From positions 2,501 through 66,500 of the forward strand of contig NZ_JAFZ01000002.1 of assembly GCF_000526395.1 (NCBI RefSeq): 64,000 nt of DNA, written 5' to 3'. The notes under the pieces were generated by a model, which was not told the origin of the DNA, searched no databases, and worked only from the letters and a program-made list of their open reading frames with translations. How positions within the stretch are numbered: position 1 is the first letter of the stretch; every line of letters starts with the position of its first letter. Both the position numbers and the translations under genes were made by a program. Origin of the DNA: Aminobacterium mobile DSM 12262 (lineage in GTDB: Bacteria > Synergistota > Synergistia > Synergistales > Aminobacteriaceae). Below are positions 30,035-38,817 of the stretch, one piece after another.

Positions 30035-30075
30035 AGACTATAACAACGTTAACGGTGAAAGAAGGGATAGAATAT

Positions 30076-31146
30076 ATGCGTCATCTCAAAAAAATATTCG
30101 TTATGACTTTTTCTCTCTATCTATTAGCTACCCTCTCCTCCTGTGTTGCAGCAGAAACGTTACTATACACACTTTACATACCCTGCAAAATTGGCGCTTC
30201 TGCATATGCTATAAGACCTGACGGCTCCAAAACAGACTTGGGAACCATTTCGTCCATACCAGAAACCACCCGATGGCCCAGTTACACAGCCAGCGGGTGG
30301 GGTAAGCCAGGGACAGTATGTGCTTCAGCTGTTAATGCTATACATTTACTCTGCTCCATCGAAGATGAGAAAGGCCGGACCATCAGCATTTTACCTCAGA
30401 CTACTGTAGCTCCAGCGGCAGGGAAAAAAACTTTTTTTACTGTACGTTCTGATGCCGGTACAGGAATTTTCGGCGGATGGGCACCACCTGTAGGTACAAA
30501 GGTTTATGTCCGCCGCCCAGACGATAGACAGGCTCTTCTCTCTTGTGAGAATATGCCCGTAGAGGGCGATATTCTTGTTATTCCTGTGGAAGAAACAGCC
30601 TCTCTTCCGTACATCGTGGATATAGAAAATCGTCCAGGTGGTCGTATTATCGCTTGGTACTCTCAAGGACCTCAAATCGTAGCTAGAGTCATTCGTCCAA
30701 TTTACGGGACCGGCCGTTTTGAAGGAACCCTCTTCCAACGAGGAAGTCGCATACGAGCTAACCATACAGGAGTCATCGATATAAGCACATCACCTCGGGG
30801 AGAAATTGGAGGGTTTCAGATCATGCCTCTCCTTCACGGTGCCTCTTCTGAAATGGCTTCTGCTTGGCAATTGACCCAATGGATGATTATTGCTTCTACG
30901 AGTCATAATACCCTAGTGGGTACGACACCTCTCTTCTCAGACGGTCTAGTCCCTGGCACGCAACTTCAAGACAAGCTTTGGGATATATGGTCCACCTATG
31001 AACGCCGGCCTCTCATTCTCTGCCGTTTAGATGGTGCCCCATGGCAATTTTTCCCTTCTGTTTCTGGTCGGCAAGATAAGGCTCTTTACAATATGACTCA
31101 CATTAGAATATATTACCCTGCTACCAAAGAGCCTCTACAAAAGTAG
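30076..31146 (+). CDS. Exported protein of unknown function, possible lipoprotein
   Basis: Not recognised. The 356 residues start with a signal peptide (MRHLKKIFVMTFSLYLLATL) followed by LSSC, which fits a lipobox with C23; cleavage by signal peptidase I after VAA is the alternative. The mature part is beta-rich with many Gly/Pro/Trp residues (ASGWGKPGTVCAS, FGGWAPPVG, GRFEGTLFQRGSRIRANHTGVIDISTSP, GEIGGFQIMPL). It has no visible enzymatic motif. The frame is open to GTG 30055, but ATG 30076 has AGAAGG ahead and gives a proper signal peptide. It is monocistronic, closed by a terminator shared with glmS. Confidence 0.75.
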   Translation: MRHLKKIFVMTFSLYLLATLSSCVAAETLLYTLYIPCKIGASAYAIRPDGSKTDLGTISSIPETTRWPSYTASGWGKPGTVCASAVNAIHLLCSIEDEKGRTISILPQTTVAPAAGKKTFFTVRSDAGTGIFGGWAPPVGTKVYVRRPDDRQALLSCENMPVEGDILVIPVEETASLPYIVDIENRPGGRIIAWYSQGPQIVARVIRPIYGTGRFEGTLFQRGSRIRANHTGVIDISTSPRGEIGGFQIMPLLHGASSEMASAWQLTQWMIIASTSHNTLVGTTPLFSDGLVPGTQLQDKLWDIWSTYERRPLILCRLDGAPWQFFPSVSGRQDKALYNMTHIRIYYPATKEPLQK

Positions 31147-31236: not shown

Positions 31237-33069
31237 TTACTCGACTGTAACGCTTTTGGCCAAATTACGAGGTTGATCGATGTCGCATCCCCGTACACGA
31301 GCCATATAATATGCAAAAATCTGCAACGGAATAACCGTCATAAAAGGAGTTAGCTCCTCTTCTGTTTGAGGCACAGAAAAAACATGATCTGATATTTCAT
31401 CTACGTTTTTATCCCCCAAAGTACCTATAGTAAAAATTGGAGCCTTTCTGGCTTTCGCTTCTAAAATATTCGAAAAAGCTTTTTCATAAAGTTTATCCCG
31501 TGGAGCAATCACTACCACTGGTACATCCTTTTCAAGCAGAGCTATAGGACCATGTTTCATCTCGCCGGCAGCGTAAGCTTCAGCATGCACATATGATATT
31601 TCTTTTAACTTCAACGCCCCTTCTAACGCTATGGGGAAAGAACGGCCACGACCGAGATAGAGAAGATCCCGAGATGTTGCATATCTCTCAGCTATACGTC
31701 GAAGCTCTTCCTGTCGTTCCAGTATCCCCTCTATCTGATATGGCAATTTCTGAAGACCATCTACAAGCCTTTTCTCCTCAACTGAAGAGAGAGTCCCACG
31801 CAGTTTAGCAATATAGATAGCGAGCACGTATAGCACCGCAAGCTGCCCGGTAAACGTTTTCGTAGCTGCTACTCCTATTTCAGGGCCTGCTTTCAGCAAG
31901 AGGACATCGTCTACTTCTCGAGCCAAAGATGATCCTTGAGCATTCGTCACCGCCAAACATCGGGCTCCTCGACTTTTAGCCATCCGCTCTGCAGCAAGAG
32001 TATCCGCTGTCTCTCCAGATTGAGATACAAAAATCGCCAACGTATCTTCTCCTATAGAAAGAGGTCTGTATCGATACTCAGAAGCCACATCCACACGAAT
32101 ATCTAGGTCCGTAATCTCCTCAAGAAGCCTTTCCGCTACCAGTGCCGCATAAAACGAAGTACCACATGCCACGATATGGAGGCGCCTCCACTTTTGAACC
32201 GAAGAAGCGGGAACATGGAGCTCCTTGGAAAGATCCACTTTTGAATTGCAGATACGCCCCTCTAGAGAACTCCTTAAAACAGCACCCTGCTCATTGATTT
32301 CTTTAAGCATAAAGTGCGGATAGCCACATTTATCTACCATGGAAAGATCCCATTCTATACGATGGAATTCTTTTTTTATAATTGAACCAGACTCATCCCA
32401 AAAGGACACTCCCTTTGGGGAGAGACAGGCAATATCCCCGTCGTTCATATAGTACACATTTTGAGTATATGGCAGGAGAGCAGGGACATCGGAAGCACAA
32501 AAAGCCTCTCCCTCACCGTTACCCACAACGAGAGGAGAACCCTTTCTAACACAATAGATCGTATCTGGCATGTCCTTAACGAGAATAGCTAGCGCAAAAG
32601 AACCCCTTAACTGAGCTCCTAGCTCCACCAAAGCCTGAACCATATCTTTTTTACTTCCATAAATTTTAGCAAGAAGCTGGGCAACTACTTCCGTATCTGT
32701 TTCAGTTAAGAAAGAAACGCCCTCTGATTCAAGTGCTTTTCTTATTTCAATATAGTTTTCGACAATTCCATTATGTACTAAAACAATCTGCCTTTTGCAG
32801 TCGCTATGAGGATGAGCATTGACCTGAGTTACACCACCGTGGGTAGCCCAACGAGTATGGCCAATGCCAAGATGCCCACCGATACTACGGGTAGAGATAG
32901 CCTTTTCAAGCTCAGAAACCTTTCCCACCTCTTTGAGCACCTGAATATCTTTACCGTTGTTTACAGCAATTCCAGCCGAATCATACCCTCGATACTCCAA
33001 GCGCTTCATGCCATCTATAAGAATATCTGGCGCATTACGCTGCCCTACATATCCAACAATCCCACACAC
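31237..33069 (-). CDS. glmS: Glutamine-fructose-6-phosphate transaminase (isomerizing)
   Basis: Makes glucosamine 6-phosphate from fructose 6-phosphate and glutamine, the entry to UDP-GlcNAc. The longer open frame hides the true start: GTG 33069 gives (M)CGIVGYVGQRNAP with the N-terminal nucleophile Cys that the enzyme needs. The 610 residues have a glutaminase domain (RWATHGG, HNGIVENY, TDTEV) and two SIS domains (ACGTSFYA, VSQSGETADT, HGPIAL), ending in the conserved LAKSVTVE. The message carries a glmS ribozyme in the leader. Confidence 0.97.
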   Translation of the reverse strand: MCGIVGYVGQRNAPDILIDGMKRLEYRGYDSAGIAVNNGKDIQVLKEVGKVSELEKAISTRSIGGHLGIGHTRWATHGGVTQVNAHPHSDCKRQIVLVHNGIVENYIEIRKALESEGVSFLTETDTEVVAQLLAKIYGSKKDMVQALVELGAQLRGSFALAILVKDMPDTIYCVRKGSPLVVGNGEGEAFCASDVPALLPYTQNVYYMNDGDIACLSPKGVSFWDESGSIIKKEFHRIEWDLSMVDKCGYPHFMLKEINEQGAVLRSSLEGRICNSKVDLSKELHVPASSVQKWRRLHIVACGTSFYAALVAERLLEEITDLDIRVDVASEYRYRPLSIGEDTLAIFVSQSGETADTLAAERMAKSRGARCLAVTNAQGSSLAREVDDVLLLKAGPEIGVAATKTFTGQLAVLYVLAIYIAKLRGTLSSVEEKRLVDGLQKLPYQIEGILERQEELRRIAERYATSRDLLYLGRGRSFPIALEGALKLKEISYVHAEAYAAGEMKHGPIALLEKDVPVVVIAPRDKLYEKAFSNILEAKARKAPIFTIGTLGDKNVDEISDHVFSVPQTEEELTPFMTVIPLQIFAYYMARVRGCDIDQPRNLAKSVTVE

Positions 33070-33110
33070 TGAACAGTGCACCGCCTTTCGTACAGGCACA
33101 CGAAAACCAT

Positions 33111-33255
33111 CTGTTCTTATTGTCCCGGAGATCGCTCCCCGGTTTTGTAGAACAGTTTATTGGCTTGGCTTTCAGAGCCATGGGGGCATCCGCCGAATAT
33201 TCGATAATCCCCCAACCTCGTCAACTGGCCATAAAAACCAGTCCTGGCGCTACCT
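33111..33255 (-). ncRNA. glmS ribozyme (glucosamine-6-phosphate-activated self-cleaving riboswitch)
   Basis: Read on the minus strand between galU and glmS. The cleavage site is A|GCGCC with the G at 33250 (cut between 33251 and 33250). P1 is ACTGG/CCAGT. The conserved core follows: TTGACGAGG, then TTATCGAATATTCGGCGGATG inside the GGGGG/CCCCC stem. ACAAAACCGGGGAGCGATC forms the P4 region with TCCGG, and the closing stem CTGTTC/GAACAG ends at 33111. It lies about 40 bases before the glmS start. In the known class, glucosamine 6-phosphate binds as cofactor, the RNA cuts itself and the glmS message is degraded. Confidence 0.95.
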
Positions 33256-33289
33256 TCTCCCGCAATAATTTTTTATTGCCTCAGCACGT

Positions 33290-34195
33290 TTATTTGTTTT
33301 CGCTATTTGTACATTTCTCACCCCTTTCATAGTTTTCCACACTTTCTAACACTATTTTCCGCAGGTCTGGGTCTTTGAGAGCCATCTCCACGTTAGCCTT
33401 GAGCCAGCCCTTTTGTGTTCCACAATCAAGCCGTTGCCCTTTATACACGACACCCCATAACTGTTGTTCTTTTGCTAGCTGTCTTAATGCATCTGTAAGT
33501 TGAATTTCACCTCCTGCACCAGGTTTTGTATTCTTAAGAATGGAGAAAATTTCTGGAGCAAGAATATAACGCCCCATAATCGCCAAATTGCTCGGCGCTT
33601 TTTCAGGCGAGGGTTTCTCCACAAGATCGTGAATTTTGAAGAGGCCTTCTGACACTTTTTCTGCCTGAACAACTCCATAGCGAGCTGTCTCCTCAGAAGG
33701 AACTTCTTCCAAGGCTATAACACTTCCACCCCATTTTTCATGGACAGCAATCAACTGGGAAAGAACTGAAGGCTGGGCTACCATCACATCATCAGGAAGT
33801 ATGACTCCGAAATACTCCCTGCCACAGAAAGGTTCCCCACACAGAACCGCATGCCCTAACCCTAACGGTTCAGGTTGCCTCGTATATACGACCCTAGCCA
33901 TTTCAGGTATTTTTCGCACAAGACGGAGCATATCCATCTTTCCTCGTTCTTCCAATATCTTTTCTAATTCCCAAGTTCGATCAAAATAATCTTCAAGAGA
34001 TCTTTTTGACCGGCTGGTTATAAGGACAACGTCTGTACACCCAGCAGCTACTGCTTCCTCTACCCCAAAAGAAATAATCGGCCGGTCTACAAGCGGTAAC
34101 ATTTCTTTAGGAATATCTTTTGTTGCGGGTAAAAATCGTGTCCCCAATCCCGCAACTGGGAAAAGACATTTTCTAACTGTTTGGAATTCACCCAT
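33290..34195 (-). CDS. galU: UTP-glucose-1-phosphate uridylyltransferase
   Basis: Forms UDP-glucose from glucose 1-phosphate and UTP. The 301 residues begin with RKCLFPVAGLGTRFLPATKDIPKEMLPLVDRP, the nucleotide-binding signature, and contain LGLGHAVLCGEPF and GVILPDDVM. The frame is open to 34231; ATG 34195 fits the family N-terminus, with AAGGAG about 12 bases ahead. It lies between glmM and the ribozyme, so cleavage of a galU-glmS message would separate the two. Confidence 0.95.
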   Translation of the reverse strand: MGEFQTVRKCLFPVAGLGTRFLPATKDIPKEMLPLVDRPIISFGVEEAVAAGCTDVVLITSRSKRSLEDYFDRTWELEKILEERGKMDMLRLVRKIPEMARVVYTRQPEPLGLGHAVLCGEPFCGREYFGVILPDDVMVAQPSVLSQLIAVHEKWGGSVIALEEVPSEETARYGVVQAEKVSEGLFKIHDLVEKPSPEKAPSNLAIMGRYILAPEIFSILKNTKPGAGGEIQLTDALRQLAKEQQLWGVVYKGQRLDCGTQKGWLKANVEMALKDPDLRKIVLESVENYERGEKCTNSENK

Positions 34196-34237
34196 AAGAA
34201 AAAATTTCTCCTTCCAGCCTCTATCAGACAAGAAATG

Positions 34238-35605
34238 CTAACAGCACTTCAACTGTATCTGATCCACTAGATCCTTTGAAACTTCTCGCATTAATTGAGG
34301 ATCTTTAGCCTCCACAAGAACCCTCATGAGAGGCTCAGTCCCTGACGGTCGAATGAGGACTCTGCCCTGCCCCATCAGCTTCTGATTTGCTTCCTGAGAT
34401 ATATGGGATATAAAAGCTGGATCTACCGAACGACTCCTAGAAATTTCTACATTACGAAGGAGTTGGGGATAGCGATCAAACGTATCAACAAGTGAATCTA
34501 TGTTTTCTCCTAATTCGCTACATGCCCTCAGGAAAATAAAGCCTGTACAAATTCCATCTCCTGTAGATGTAAACTCGCTAATTATAACGTGCCCAGACTG
34601 TTCGCCTCCAAGGCAAGAATCCCTATGTTTCATCATTTCAAGTACATAACGATCCCCTACCGGACAACGGAAAACCTGAATCCCATCCTTCTTCAAATGC
34701 TCTTCAAGAGAGAGGTTGCTCATAACTGTAGCAACAACGCCACTACCCAATTTCCTTTGAGAAGCAAGCCAGCGAGCTAAAACCCAAAGGATAATGTCTC
34801 CATCCAAAACTCGCTCTAAAGAATCGGTAAGCAAAACTCGGTCGGCATCACCATCATACGCTATTCCTACCTGAGCATTTTCCTCTTTCACTACTGAAGC
34901 AATATGGGCCATATTCATAACGCCCACTCCTTCATTAATGTTTAACCCGTCTGGAGCATCGCCAGTAAGCATCCAAGAGGAAACGCCTCTATTTTTATTG
35001 ATAACATGTAAAATGTCGGAAGCCGCACCATGAGCACAATCAAAGGCGATCCGACTATCCAGGAGGGGAATAGACGAGGCAAGAGAAGCGAGCCACCGTG
35101 CATACGATTGCGCGATATCAGGACGCTCTACAACCTCCCCAATAGAAGCTCCTGTAGGACGCCAGTCATCTATAAGATTATCGCCAAGGTATTCCTCAAT
35201 GGAAGCTTCAGCATCATCGCATAACTTGTGCCCATCACTGTTTAAAAACTTAATGCCGTTATATTCTGCTGGATTATGAGATGCGCTCACAACCACACCG
35301 CCTTGCGCTTTTACCTGTTTTATTGCAAAACTCACTCCAGGCGTAGGTATAACACCTAGGGACAAAACCTGCGCTCCCGCAGAAAGCATTCCTGCCACAA
35401 GAGCATTCACAAGCATATTCCCTGACCTACGGGTATCCCGTCCAATAACAATCCGGGGACGAGGAACACCCCTTTCCGTTAAATACAGCACGTAAGATCT
35501 TCCTAGACGCAATGCCATTTCTGGAGTCATGACCCCTCTGTTGGCTACATCCCTAACACCGTCTGTACCGAAAAGGCAGCGAACCTTTTTTTCACTCTCT
35601 TCCAA
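34238..35605 (-). CDS. glmM: Phosphoglucosamine mutase
   Basis: Converts glucosamine 6-phosphate to glucosamine 1-phosphate between GlmS and GlmU. The 455 residues show FGTDGVRDVANRG, the phosphoserine loop VVVSASHNPAEYNGIKF near residue 100, the metal loop DGDADRV, GGEQSGHV and the C-terminal RPSGTEPLMRVLVEA. The start is a TTG with GGGGAAGG ahead. The order cdaA-cdaR-glmM is conserved across many Gram-positive-type genomes; in known cases GlmM binds and inhibits CdaA. Confidence 0.96.
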   Translation of the reverse strand: MEESEKKVRCLFGTDGVRDVANRGVMTPEMALRLGRSYVLYLTERGVPRPRIVIGRDTRRSGNMLVNALVAGMLSAGAQVLSLGVIPTPGVSFAIKQVKAQGGVVVSASHNPAEYNGIKFLNSDGHKLCDDAEASIEEYLGDNLIDDWRPTGASIGEVVERPDIAQSYARWLASLASSIPLLDSRIAFDCAHGAASDILHVINKNRGVSSWMLTGDAPDGLNINEGVGVMNMAHIASVVKEENAQVGIAYDGDADRVLLTDSLERVLDGDIILWVLARWLASQRKLGSGVVATVMSNLSLEEHLKKDGIQVFRCPVGDRYVLEMMKHRDSCLGGEQSGHVIISEFTSTGDGICTGFIFLRACSELGENIDSLVDTFDRYPQLLRNVEISRSRSVDPAFISHISQEANQKLMGQGRVLIRPSGTEPLMRVLVEAKDPQLMREVSKDLVDQIQLKCC

Positions 35606-35634: not shown

Positions 35635-36864
35635 TTACTCCACGTCCGCCCGCACTGTTACGCGAGAAGGTTCAACCTTGACAACATGAATGCTCCGTGA
35701 AGTATTTCTAACCTGTACAGGAACCATTAATTTTCTTGACACAATATTCGTTACATTCACATAGGGCTGAATAGGGAAATTCGATTCGTCTATTTTTTCC
35801 ACTTCCGACGGCGTCCCCTCAATAGTAATATTCACAGCAGAAGGATCCACTTTCCACCCTGGATAGATACTATTCCCTTCCACCTCTACAGCTACATTTG
35901 TCAAAAGTTTTGAGACCGTAAAAGGCTTAAGTAATATATTTACCCGTACAGAAGATGCACCCGCATATTTTAAAGTTCCATCGTCAATAGGCTTGAGCGG
36001 CACAATCATACTTTGTTCCTGAGACAACCCTGTGATATCAATGGTCTCGGTCTCAACCTTCGGCAAAGCTTCTAATTTATTATAGGGCCCTTCAACCTCC
36101 ACTTCCGAAGGCTCTACTATTATGGCCTTTACTGAGAAGTCCGAATTCGGCTCTCCTATAACTTGGACATTAACTGGAACTTTTTTCTTCGGAAGCCCTT
36201 TGGCTAGTACAGCTGTCAAGTGAACTTCCTTGGGATCTATATCAATCTGGTCTTCAAAAACTTCAGATTTGTTTACTTCCACCGGCAAAACAACATCCTC
36301 ACCACTCTTTAATTGATCAAGAGTAGGGGTAATACGAACACCCTTAATTCGCGCTAAATCTTTTTCCACCCCTCGTACTGTTACATCCTTAGGTGAGATG
36401 TGGACCGATTCAAGATAAAGACCTGGAGGCAATCCATCTTTTACGACAACATCTACTGGGATCATACGATCGATATATCGTACCATCTCTATAGCTATTT
36501 GTGCTGGATTAATACCCACGACTTTAACATCTTTAGGAACTATAGCACGAACAGCAAGTCGATATTTTCCAAGGGAAAGCCCTTTTGTGTCTACCTCACA
36601 AAGAATTGCTCCTTGCTTAAGCCCATCAAGCATAGTTCGGCTACCGGACACACTTACTTCCACTTCCCGAGTTTCTGCTCTCAATATAGTTTGTTGAGGA
36701 ACATTAGAAAAATCCACCGGGCAACGGAAGGTTCTAACAACTTCTCCTCCCCGATCTCCTGCTACATAGAACCAGAGAAGTATAGCTATAACCACAGAAA
36801 TAATCCTCAGGAAATGAGGAGAAGTTAAGAGAACATCAATTTTTTTTGATTCTGGCGCCAACAT
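35635..36864 (-). CDS. cdaR: CdaR (YbbR-domain) regulator of diadenylate cyclase
   Basis: Membrane-anchored extracytoplasmic protein that modulates CdaA in known systems. The 409 residues have one N-terminal membrane segment (FLRIISVVIAILLWFYVAG, about 18-36) followed by roughly four YbbR-type beta domains, each with a VTVRG- or VEVEGP-like strand. It lies between cdaA and glmM with gaps of 20-30 bases, so the three are cotranscribed. Confidence 0.92.
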   Translation of the reverse strand: MLAPESKKIDVLLTSPHFLRIISVVIAILLWFYVAGDRGGEVVRTFRCPVDFSNVPQQTILRAETREVEVSVSGSRTMLDGLKQGAILCEVDTKGLSLGKYRLAVRAIVPKDVKVVGINPAQIAIEMVRYIDRMIPVDVVVKDGLPPGLYLESVHISPKDVTVRGVEKDLARIKGVRITPTLDQLKSGEDVVLPVEVNKSEVFEDQIDIDPKEVHLTAVLAKGLPKKKVPVNVQVIGEPNSDFSVKAIIVEPSEVEVEGPYNKLEALPKVETETIDITGLSQEQSMIVPLKPIDDGTLKYAGASSVRVNILLKPFTVSKLLTNVAVEVEGNSIYPGWKVDPSAVNITIEGTPSEVEKIDESNFPIQPYVNVTNIVSRKLMVPVQVRNTSRSIHVVKVEPSRVTVRADVE

Positions 36865-36888: not shown

Positions 36889-37698
36889 CTATTGCCACAA
36901 AGAACGAATATCTTCTTGTACCCGATCAAGGATAGATCGTTTCTCTTTCTCTTCTGCGCCAAAGTAGTGGAGAAGAAGTTTATACACTTGATTCTCTTTT
37001 AAATTTCTGGAGAGATGCCCATTAATAGCTAGAGATATCTCTCCTCGCTCTTCTGAAACCACCAAAGCTATAGCATCAGATACCTCCGACACTCCAAGAG
37101 CAGCTCTATGACGAGTCCCTATCCAACGAGAAAGATCTGTATTTTCAGTTAAAGGGAGGTAGGTCCCTGCAGATATAATCATGTCTCGATCCACAATAAC
37201 AGCCCCATCATGGAGGGGGTTATCCGGCCAAAAAATAGCTATAAGAAGTTCCTGCGAAATTTCAGCATTCAATTTAACAGCCGTACTCCAGAAATCTTTC
37301 AGCCCTGTTTCTCTCTGAAGCACCATAAGTGCTCCGATTTTCTGTCCTTTAAGATACCCTAATGCACGAGTGATTTCCTGACTCAAAGCCTCAGCTCTCT
37401 TTTGAGCCCTTTTGCGTCTCCATATATTGCCTCGTCCCAATTCTTCCAACATTTTACGAAGTTCCGGTTGAAACACGATCGGGATAGCTATGATCAATAC
37501 TCCTAAAACTTTCCCCAAAAACCACGACAACGTTTTCAGTTCAAAAAACCTGGCCAGAGAAGCTACGACTCCTAATATAAGCAACCCCTTCACAAGCTGC
37601 ATTGCGCGGGTGCCGACCAGAAGCAATAAAAGGCGATGAATAATCACCGCTATAATAATTATGTCTAAAAGATCGTGCCAACGAAAAAAATCGAGCAT
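36889..37698 (-). CDS. cdaA: Diadenylate cyclase CdaA
   Basis: Makes cyclic di-AMP from two ATP. The 269 residues have three N-terminal hydrophobic segments and a DisA_N domain with the active-site motifs DGAVIV (near 165) and RHRAALG (near 197). ATG 37698 has GGAGG 7 bases ahead; the open frame runs to TTG 37731 but without a site. The PgpH-type hydrolase at 15.4 kb would complete the c-di-AMP cycle. Confidence 0.95.
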   Translation of the reverse strand: MLDFFRWHDLLDIIIIAVIIHRLLLLLVGTRAMQLVKGLLILGVVASLARFFELKTLSWFLGKVLGVLIIAIPIVFQPELRKMLEELGRGNIWRRKRAQKRAEALSQEITRALGYLKGQKIGALMVLQRETGLKDFWSTAVKLNAEISQELLIAIFWPDNPLHDGAVIVDRDMIISAGTYLPLTENTDLSRWIGTRHRAALGVSEVSDAIALVVSEERGEISLAINGHLSRNLKENQVYKLLLHYFGAEEKEKRSILDRVQEDIRSLWQ

Positions 37699-37737
37699 CC
37701 TTTTTCCTCCACTCTCAACCTGAGATGGCAAACAAAA

Positions 37738-38817
37738 TTACCTTATCATATGTACAGAAACATAGGGAGACGTGGTAAGAGCTAACATAGCACTATAATC
37801 GACAGAAAAATGGAGCCTGTCTCCAACATGCAGCTGTCGTTCAGATTCTTCTACATCAAGCACCATATGGTCACTGGTAGCTCCAAGAATCTCTATCCCC
37901 TTTTCCAGAGGAGCTAATCCCTCGATTTTAACATCTTGTCTTCCTACCGCAGTTATTGCTCGCAACCGCCATCCTCTATCTGTAAAAGCAGGGATCTCAC
38001 CGAAAGCATTGGCCATCGCCCTGCCCTGTGGCAAACTAGGTTTGCGTTTTATTTCTATTATCTCTGTCTCAAGAACCATTGTTCCCTGATGCAAATAAGG
38101 AATTACTCTCATCCCTGAGGAATCTGTCCCTAAAAATATACCTTCGCCAATACGGAGCGAATTAACACATCGAGGCATCGTCCCATCCTCCAGCAAAGAC
38201 AAGGATGAAGTTGCTCCACCAGAACAAAGCTTCATAGGATAACCCAATAGGCCTTCCAACTGCTGGGAGAGGCGCCCTAATTCCCGTAGCTTATCCGAAG
38301 AGGGTAAGATCCCTCCAAAACAGGCAAAGTTTGCTCCCACTCCCATACAGTGTACATATCGACATTTTTTAAAAGCAGCGGCTATATTCTCTAATTCATC
38401 CGGCCAAATGCCCTCCCGTAGATCCCCTAGATCAATCATCAGAAGGACTTTATAATCTTGCTTCCCATGAAAACTACATTCCTGGTCCAAGGCTCTAATT
38501 GTCTCAACCTCAGATACAACGGAACTATCGCAATATTCCACAACCTCGCTAACTTCATTTAACATCGGGGTCCGGAGCATCATAATTGGGATAGTAACAC
38601 CCATTTCTTTTTTCATACGATAGACATTCTCTATACGGCTATCTGCCACGCCTTCACACCCATTTTCCAGAAGGATTCGTACAATGTCCTTCTGTGCGCA
38701 TATCCCTTTCGTAACCCCATAAATGCCAATATTCCATTGGCGACACAAGGAAACTATCCTTGCCGCATTATGAGCTATTTTATCGTGATATACCATAAGG
38801 CGGGGCCAGAGGCTCAT
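37738..38817 (-). CDS. Alanine/ornithine racemase-like PLP enzyme
   Basis: PLP-dependent fold-III amino acid racemase of the class that includes clostridial ornithine racemase. The 359 residues carry the PLP Lys in IGIYGVTKGICA (near 37), the barrel motif VHCMGVGANFACFGG, the phosphate-site SGGATSSL and the C-terminal IRIGEG/ILGATSDHMVLD beta domain. It is unlike a canonical Alr in length and motif wording. Substrate is inferred: ornithine, with alanine or another basic amino acid possible. It stands between nfo and cdaA, 39 bases before the cdaA start. Confidence 0.85.
   Translation of the reverse strand: MSLWPRLMVYHDKIAHNAARIVSLCRQWNIGIYGVTKGICAQKDIVRILLENGCEGVADSRIENVYRMKKEMGVTIPIMMLRTPMLNEVSEVVEYCDSSVVSEVETIRALDQECSFHGKQDYKVLLMIDLGDLREGIWPDELENIAAAFKKCRYVHCMGVGANFACFGGILPSSDKLRELGRLSQQLEGLLGYPMKLCSGGATSSLSLLEDGTMPRCVNSLRIGEGIFLGTDSSGMRVIPYLHQGTMVLETEIIEIKRKPSLPQGRAMANAFGEIPAFTDRGWRLRAITAVGRQDVKIEGLAPLEKGIEILGATSDHMVLDVEESERQLHVGDRLHFSVDYSAMLALTTSPYVSVHMIR

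Follow-up and report, generated by a model that had tools for sequence, protein, structure and literature searches.

The window analysed here is a stretch of 64,000 nt from Aminobacterium mobile DSM 12262, in which cdaA, cdaR, glmM and galU are followed on the minus strand by a glmS ribozyme and then by glmS (Table 1). The sequence-only reading had named galU, glmM, cdaA and glmS as the neighbours of the ribozyme, and all four proved to match NCBIfam equivalog models above the curated cut-offs, with the same comparison giving no match for the cdaR gene. The glmS start was set at the GTG at 33069 because Cys2 is then the conserved N-terminal nucleophile. The gene which comes next after glmS (30055–31146) is on the opposite strand, and glmS is therefore the last gene of the series. 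We note that the cdaA series also contains a racemase-like gene (37738–38817, minus strand) for which the best NCBIfam model is the ornithine racemase Orr, at 377 bits against a cut-off of 480 bits.

Table 1. Features at the glmS end of the gene series in the window.
Feature	Position	Strand	Basis or score
glmS, GTG start, MCGIVGYVG...	31237–33069	minus	NCBIfam TIGR01135, 812.5 bits
glmS ribosome-binding site AAAGGCGGTGC, 3′ of the ribozyme	33078–33088	minus	
glmS ribozyme (RF00234), full-length match	33101–33262	minus	Covariance model, 97.6 bits
Self-cleavage site, A33251/G33250	33250–33251	minus	GGTA/GCGCC at 33254–33246; placed by homology
Synergistota-specific GCG element, 13 nt ahead of G1	33261–33263	minus	Comparative
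Small hairpin immediately before the cut, GCAATAA-AAAA-TTATTGC	33262–33279	minus	-8.7 kcal/mol over 46 nt, z -3.4
galU	33290–34231	minus	TIGR01099
Shine-Dalgarno-like GAAAGGGGTGAG, candidate stabiliser, inside the galU 3′ end	33317–33328	minus	-10.8 kcal/mol
glmM	34238–35605	minus	TIGR01455
cdaR (YbbR-type)	35635–36864	minus	Named from its position beside cdaA (between glmM and cdaA)
cdaA, diadenylate cyclase	36889–37731	minus	TIGR00159

The Rfam glmS model RF00234, which has a gathering cut-off of 37 bits, matched the minus strand over its entire length (model positions 1–167 of 167, E 1.5e-21), and this bears out the earlier identification of a glmS ribozyme, as does the alignment of each of the named core motifs to the RF00234 consensus. 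The span first proposed (33111–33255) was correct in location and about 10 nt too short at either end, and the proposed cut at 33251/33250 agrees with the position of the GGTA/GCGCC motif. When compared with the P2.2 pairing scheme of the glmS ribozyme (PMC7125110), the cleavage strand N/GCGCC and its P2.2 partner GGCG were both found to be present in the window copy, and GCGCC is invariant across all 63 Synergistota loci. The ribozyme is the single copy in the 2.1 Mb genome and is directly upstream of glmS, the start of which is 181 nt downstream of G1.

Further analysis of the phylum identified the ribozyme in 63 of 188 Synergistota genomes, with one copy in each and at least 26 genera represented, in the recurrent order nfo–racemase–cdaA–cdaR–glmM–galU–ribozyme–glmS (galU is absent from this position in part of one family). 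The upstream sequence was readable for 62 of these loci, 56 of which are held in the cdaA–glmM series with the ribozyme straight after galU or glmM. Where galU is upstream, the distance from its stop codon to the cut has a median of 31 nt and is ≤57 nt in 45 of 47 loci, and where glmM is upstream the distance is 58–114 nt. Six genomes from one genus (the Acetomicrobium group) retain the ribozyme at a glmS gene located away from the series, and therefore the ribozyme does not require the operon setting. Among the ribozyme-less relatives, glmS was outside the cdaA–glmM series in 38 of the 39 sampled and preceded by galU only in G002, and cdaA–cdaR–glmM, often with galU, were still together elsewhere in the genome. 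Having the ribozyme and belonging to the operon are strongly associated (Fisher 3e-20, a value which is not corrected for phylogeny and reflects few evolutionary events). Judged by sequence comparison, the ribozyme itself is ordinary and its placement within an operon is typical of the Synergistota, and it adds an example, spanning a phylum, of such a ribozyme within a c-di-AMP and cell-wall operon.

Several observations were made on the edges of this distribution. In a quick GlmS tree in which some branches are weak, the ribozyme-less Synergistota proteins (L095–L133) formed two clusters inside the order, and one of these (genus g10 and relatives) was nested with GlmS proteins from the Bacillota, which suggests that the gene may have been replaced together with the loss of the ribozyme. 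At two ribozyme loci (L048 and L049, from genomes G022 and G021) the galU frame extends 18 nt beyond the cut site, and here self-cleavage would strip the galU stop codon to leave a non-stop message. An inverted repeat around CCGTACGG was seen in family f6 genus g29 (L115–L118; leaders of G117, G118, G115 and G116: L085 and L087–L089), and the same leaders carry, between the glmM gene and the ribozyme, a sequence resembling TGATAATAT which is possibly a promoter.

We consider it probable, at roughly 0.85, that the window ribozyme works within a multi-gene message and that self-cleavage turns down glmS only. The genes from nfo and the racemase through cdaA, cdaR, glmM and galU to glmS would be transcribed as one message, and when glucosamine-6-phosphate is plentiful it would act as a cofactor in the ribozyme core, leading to self-cleavage at the site placed by homology. 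As the galU stop codon ends 39 nt ahead of the cut (at 33290), the upstream cdaA–galU message would retain all of its coding sequence. The glmS part would acquire a 5′-hydroxyl end and, by extension from B. subtilis, would be degraded by RNase J, which is encoded in the genome (TIGR00649, 578 bits); in B. subtilis glucosamine-6-phosphate triggers cleavage and the 5′-hydroxyl product is degraded by RNase J1 (PMC3997798; PMC3328962). As glmS is last in the series, cutting would affect this gene only, and we infer a transcript common to glmS and the c-di-AMP genes, with a different response of the two.

The position of the ribozyme inside a gene series, with no clear promoter ahead of it, had also been noted from the sequence alone, and this is consistent with a gene order which is conserved across the phylum and with a scan of the 150 nt ahead of the cut in which no sigma-70-like signal scored above the galU-interior control, though the scan is weak and carries little weight because the stand-alone leaders, which must have a promoter, scored no higher and also fail it. 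A different explanation is that glmS has its own promoter in the 3′ part of galU, with the ribozyme acting as an ordinary leader element and the gene order being incidental. In B. subtilis, transcription of the cdaA operon passes a weak terminator and continues into glmS, and glmS is transcribed from a promoter of its own as well (PMC13046274); the second of these facts favours such a promoter here. We nonetheless regard it as unlikely, as there is just 39 nt from the galU stop codon to the cut, the gap is similarly short in the 45 of 47 relatives mentioned above, and no sigma-70 match within the final 160 nt scores higher than those in the galU interior. The B. subtilis read-through is a precedent for the general idea of a message which runs from the cdaA operon into glmS. 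The window copy is like the B. subtilis-type ribozyme (RF00234) in matching the full core and peripheral elements, in controlling glmS, in the presence of RNase J and in being near to cdaA–cdaR–glmM; it differs in having galU between glmM and glmS, and in having the cut 39 nt after a stop codon with no separate promoter seen in what was a weak scan.

We compared the leaders of around 150 relatives for features upstream of the cut, and found that many have a strong Shine-Dalgarno (SD) sequence here, referred to as the orphan SD and scored as the duplex energy with the 16S tail over positions -100 to -12 from G1. In the Synergistota, 61 of 62 leaders reached -10 kcal/mol or lower and 34 reached -14 or lower, with all 29 groups represented, whereas the adjacent stretch further upstream was at the level of shuffled sequences (19/62 and 0/62, respectively). 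The ribozyme-less glmS leaders gave 2/39 and 0/39 at the same thresholds, and the difference between 61/62 and 2/39 is highly significant if uncorrected for phylogeny (Fisher 5e-24). Leaders from outside the phylum contain purine runs such as AAAGGAGGTGAT upstream of the cut, and in the non-coding leader parts from Bacillota and Actinomycetota we found 45/66 (≤ -10) and 21/66 (≤ -14), compared to 12% and 0.9% for shuffles and 2/84 and 0/84 for TPP and SAM riboswitch leaders used as controls. The orphan SD is stronger than the true glmS ribosome-binding site (median -14.1 vs -8.6), and it does not pair with the ribozyme (-10.92 vs -10.95).

Start codons behind these orphan SDs are less common than in shuffled sequences. 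In 58 leaders from outside the phylum a start codon was found 4–14 nt behind the SD in 13 cases, against 24.9 (sd 3.7) expected, and in the Synergistota in 22 cases, against 32.1 (sd 3.5) expected, whereas the true glmS ribosome-binding site has one at this spacing in 60/62. We therefore rejected the orphan SD as the start of a leader peptide. It might still serve a short translated ORF whose ribosomes run into the ribozyme, or halt there, and so interfere with its folding. Some leaders (L216 and L261) do have an SD and ATG with short ORFs ending near the cut, and in the two Synergistota genomes mentioned above galU itself ends 18 nt past it; but the deficit of start codons at a usable spacing, and our seeing no common peptide, make this very improbable.

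A more favoured though still tentative explanation is that an SD lacking a start codon recruits 30S subunits and thereby keeps the message stable while it is uncut, and that self-cleavage would both produce the 5′-hydroxyl end and amputate the stabiliser, such that the glmS mRNA collapses. The glmS ribozymes of the Synergistota, Bacillota and Actinomycetota might then be composite switches made from an SD stabiliser and a ribozyme which removes it, a proposal that we think has somewhat less than an even chance of being correct. It is favoured by the frequencies, the shortage of start codons, the SD strength and the lack of pairing given above, and by a known precedent, the cry3A-type STAB-SD (Agaisse and Lereclus 1996, cited in PMC3997798 and PMC7509114), in which an SD without a start codon stabilises mRNA. 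At the level of the family, the glmS leaders are like STAB-SD in that a strong SD with no start codon of its own precedes the regulated gene, but differ in that a self-cleaving ribozyme follows the candidate SD, which would thus be removed by the ligand, and in that the SD in operons is far from the 5′ end. This last difference also counts against the proposal, as a 5′ stabiliser is less sensible on a message which begins kilobases further upstream.

It should be noted that the pattern was found partly in the data used to test it, and that 38 leaders (L288–L327) were fetched after it had been noticed, of which 26 scored ≤ -10. A further objection is that the SD in the operon cases is often within the galU coding sequence, where K-E-V or R-E-V codons (KEVI/REVV-type) can yield an SD; against this, the purely non-coding Synergistota leaders scored ≤ -10 in 21/23 cases, and galU ends without a ribozyme were weaker in a small control (3/8 at ≤ -8.5 and 0/8 at ≤ -10). 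The window copy is a poor example, because it reaches only -10.8 kcal/mol and is followed by ATG TAC AAA TAG, a three-codon frame. We found no paper tying an SD stabiliser to glmS ribozymes in a search which included few subscription papers and not the main glmS survey. If the upstream SD is a stabiliser, this would explain a stable uncut glmS mRNA and decisive cutting, and a much-studied ribozyme would reach past the limit now accepted for it.

The Synergistota ribozymes also differ from the B. subtilis type in having a GCG element upstream, for which no published description was found in the same search, with its few subscription papers and without the main glmS survey. In 50/62 genomes a GCG begins 10–17 nt (mostly 12–16 nt) ahead of G1, where 8.5 would be expected by chance (with a maximum of 19 in 1000 shuffles), and in 24/29 groups most members have it. 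Outside of the phylum it was found in 6/85. The element is anchored to the cut and not to the galU stop codon, and stand-alone leaders have it too. GCG matches the P2.2 partner strand and could compete for C2-G3-C4 (for the P2.2 pairs, see PMC7125110). We rejected a role as an anti-P2.2 strand, as the folding of partial transcripts was barely above that of shuffled leaders (0.75 vs 0.69, and 0.58 vs 0.56 through P1) and the GCG flanks were no better complemented in the ribozyme than shuffled flanks.

The small hairpin just upstream of the window cut was considered as a protector of the 3′ end and rejected, as it is not conserved and most relatives are without one. In several Clostridia (L221, L225, L233 and L235) a hairpin of the TTTTCG...CGAAAA type is found directly upstream of the glmS cut.
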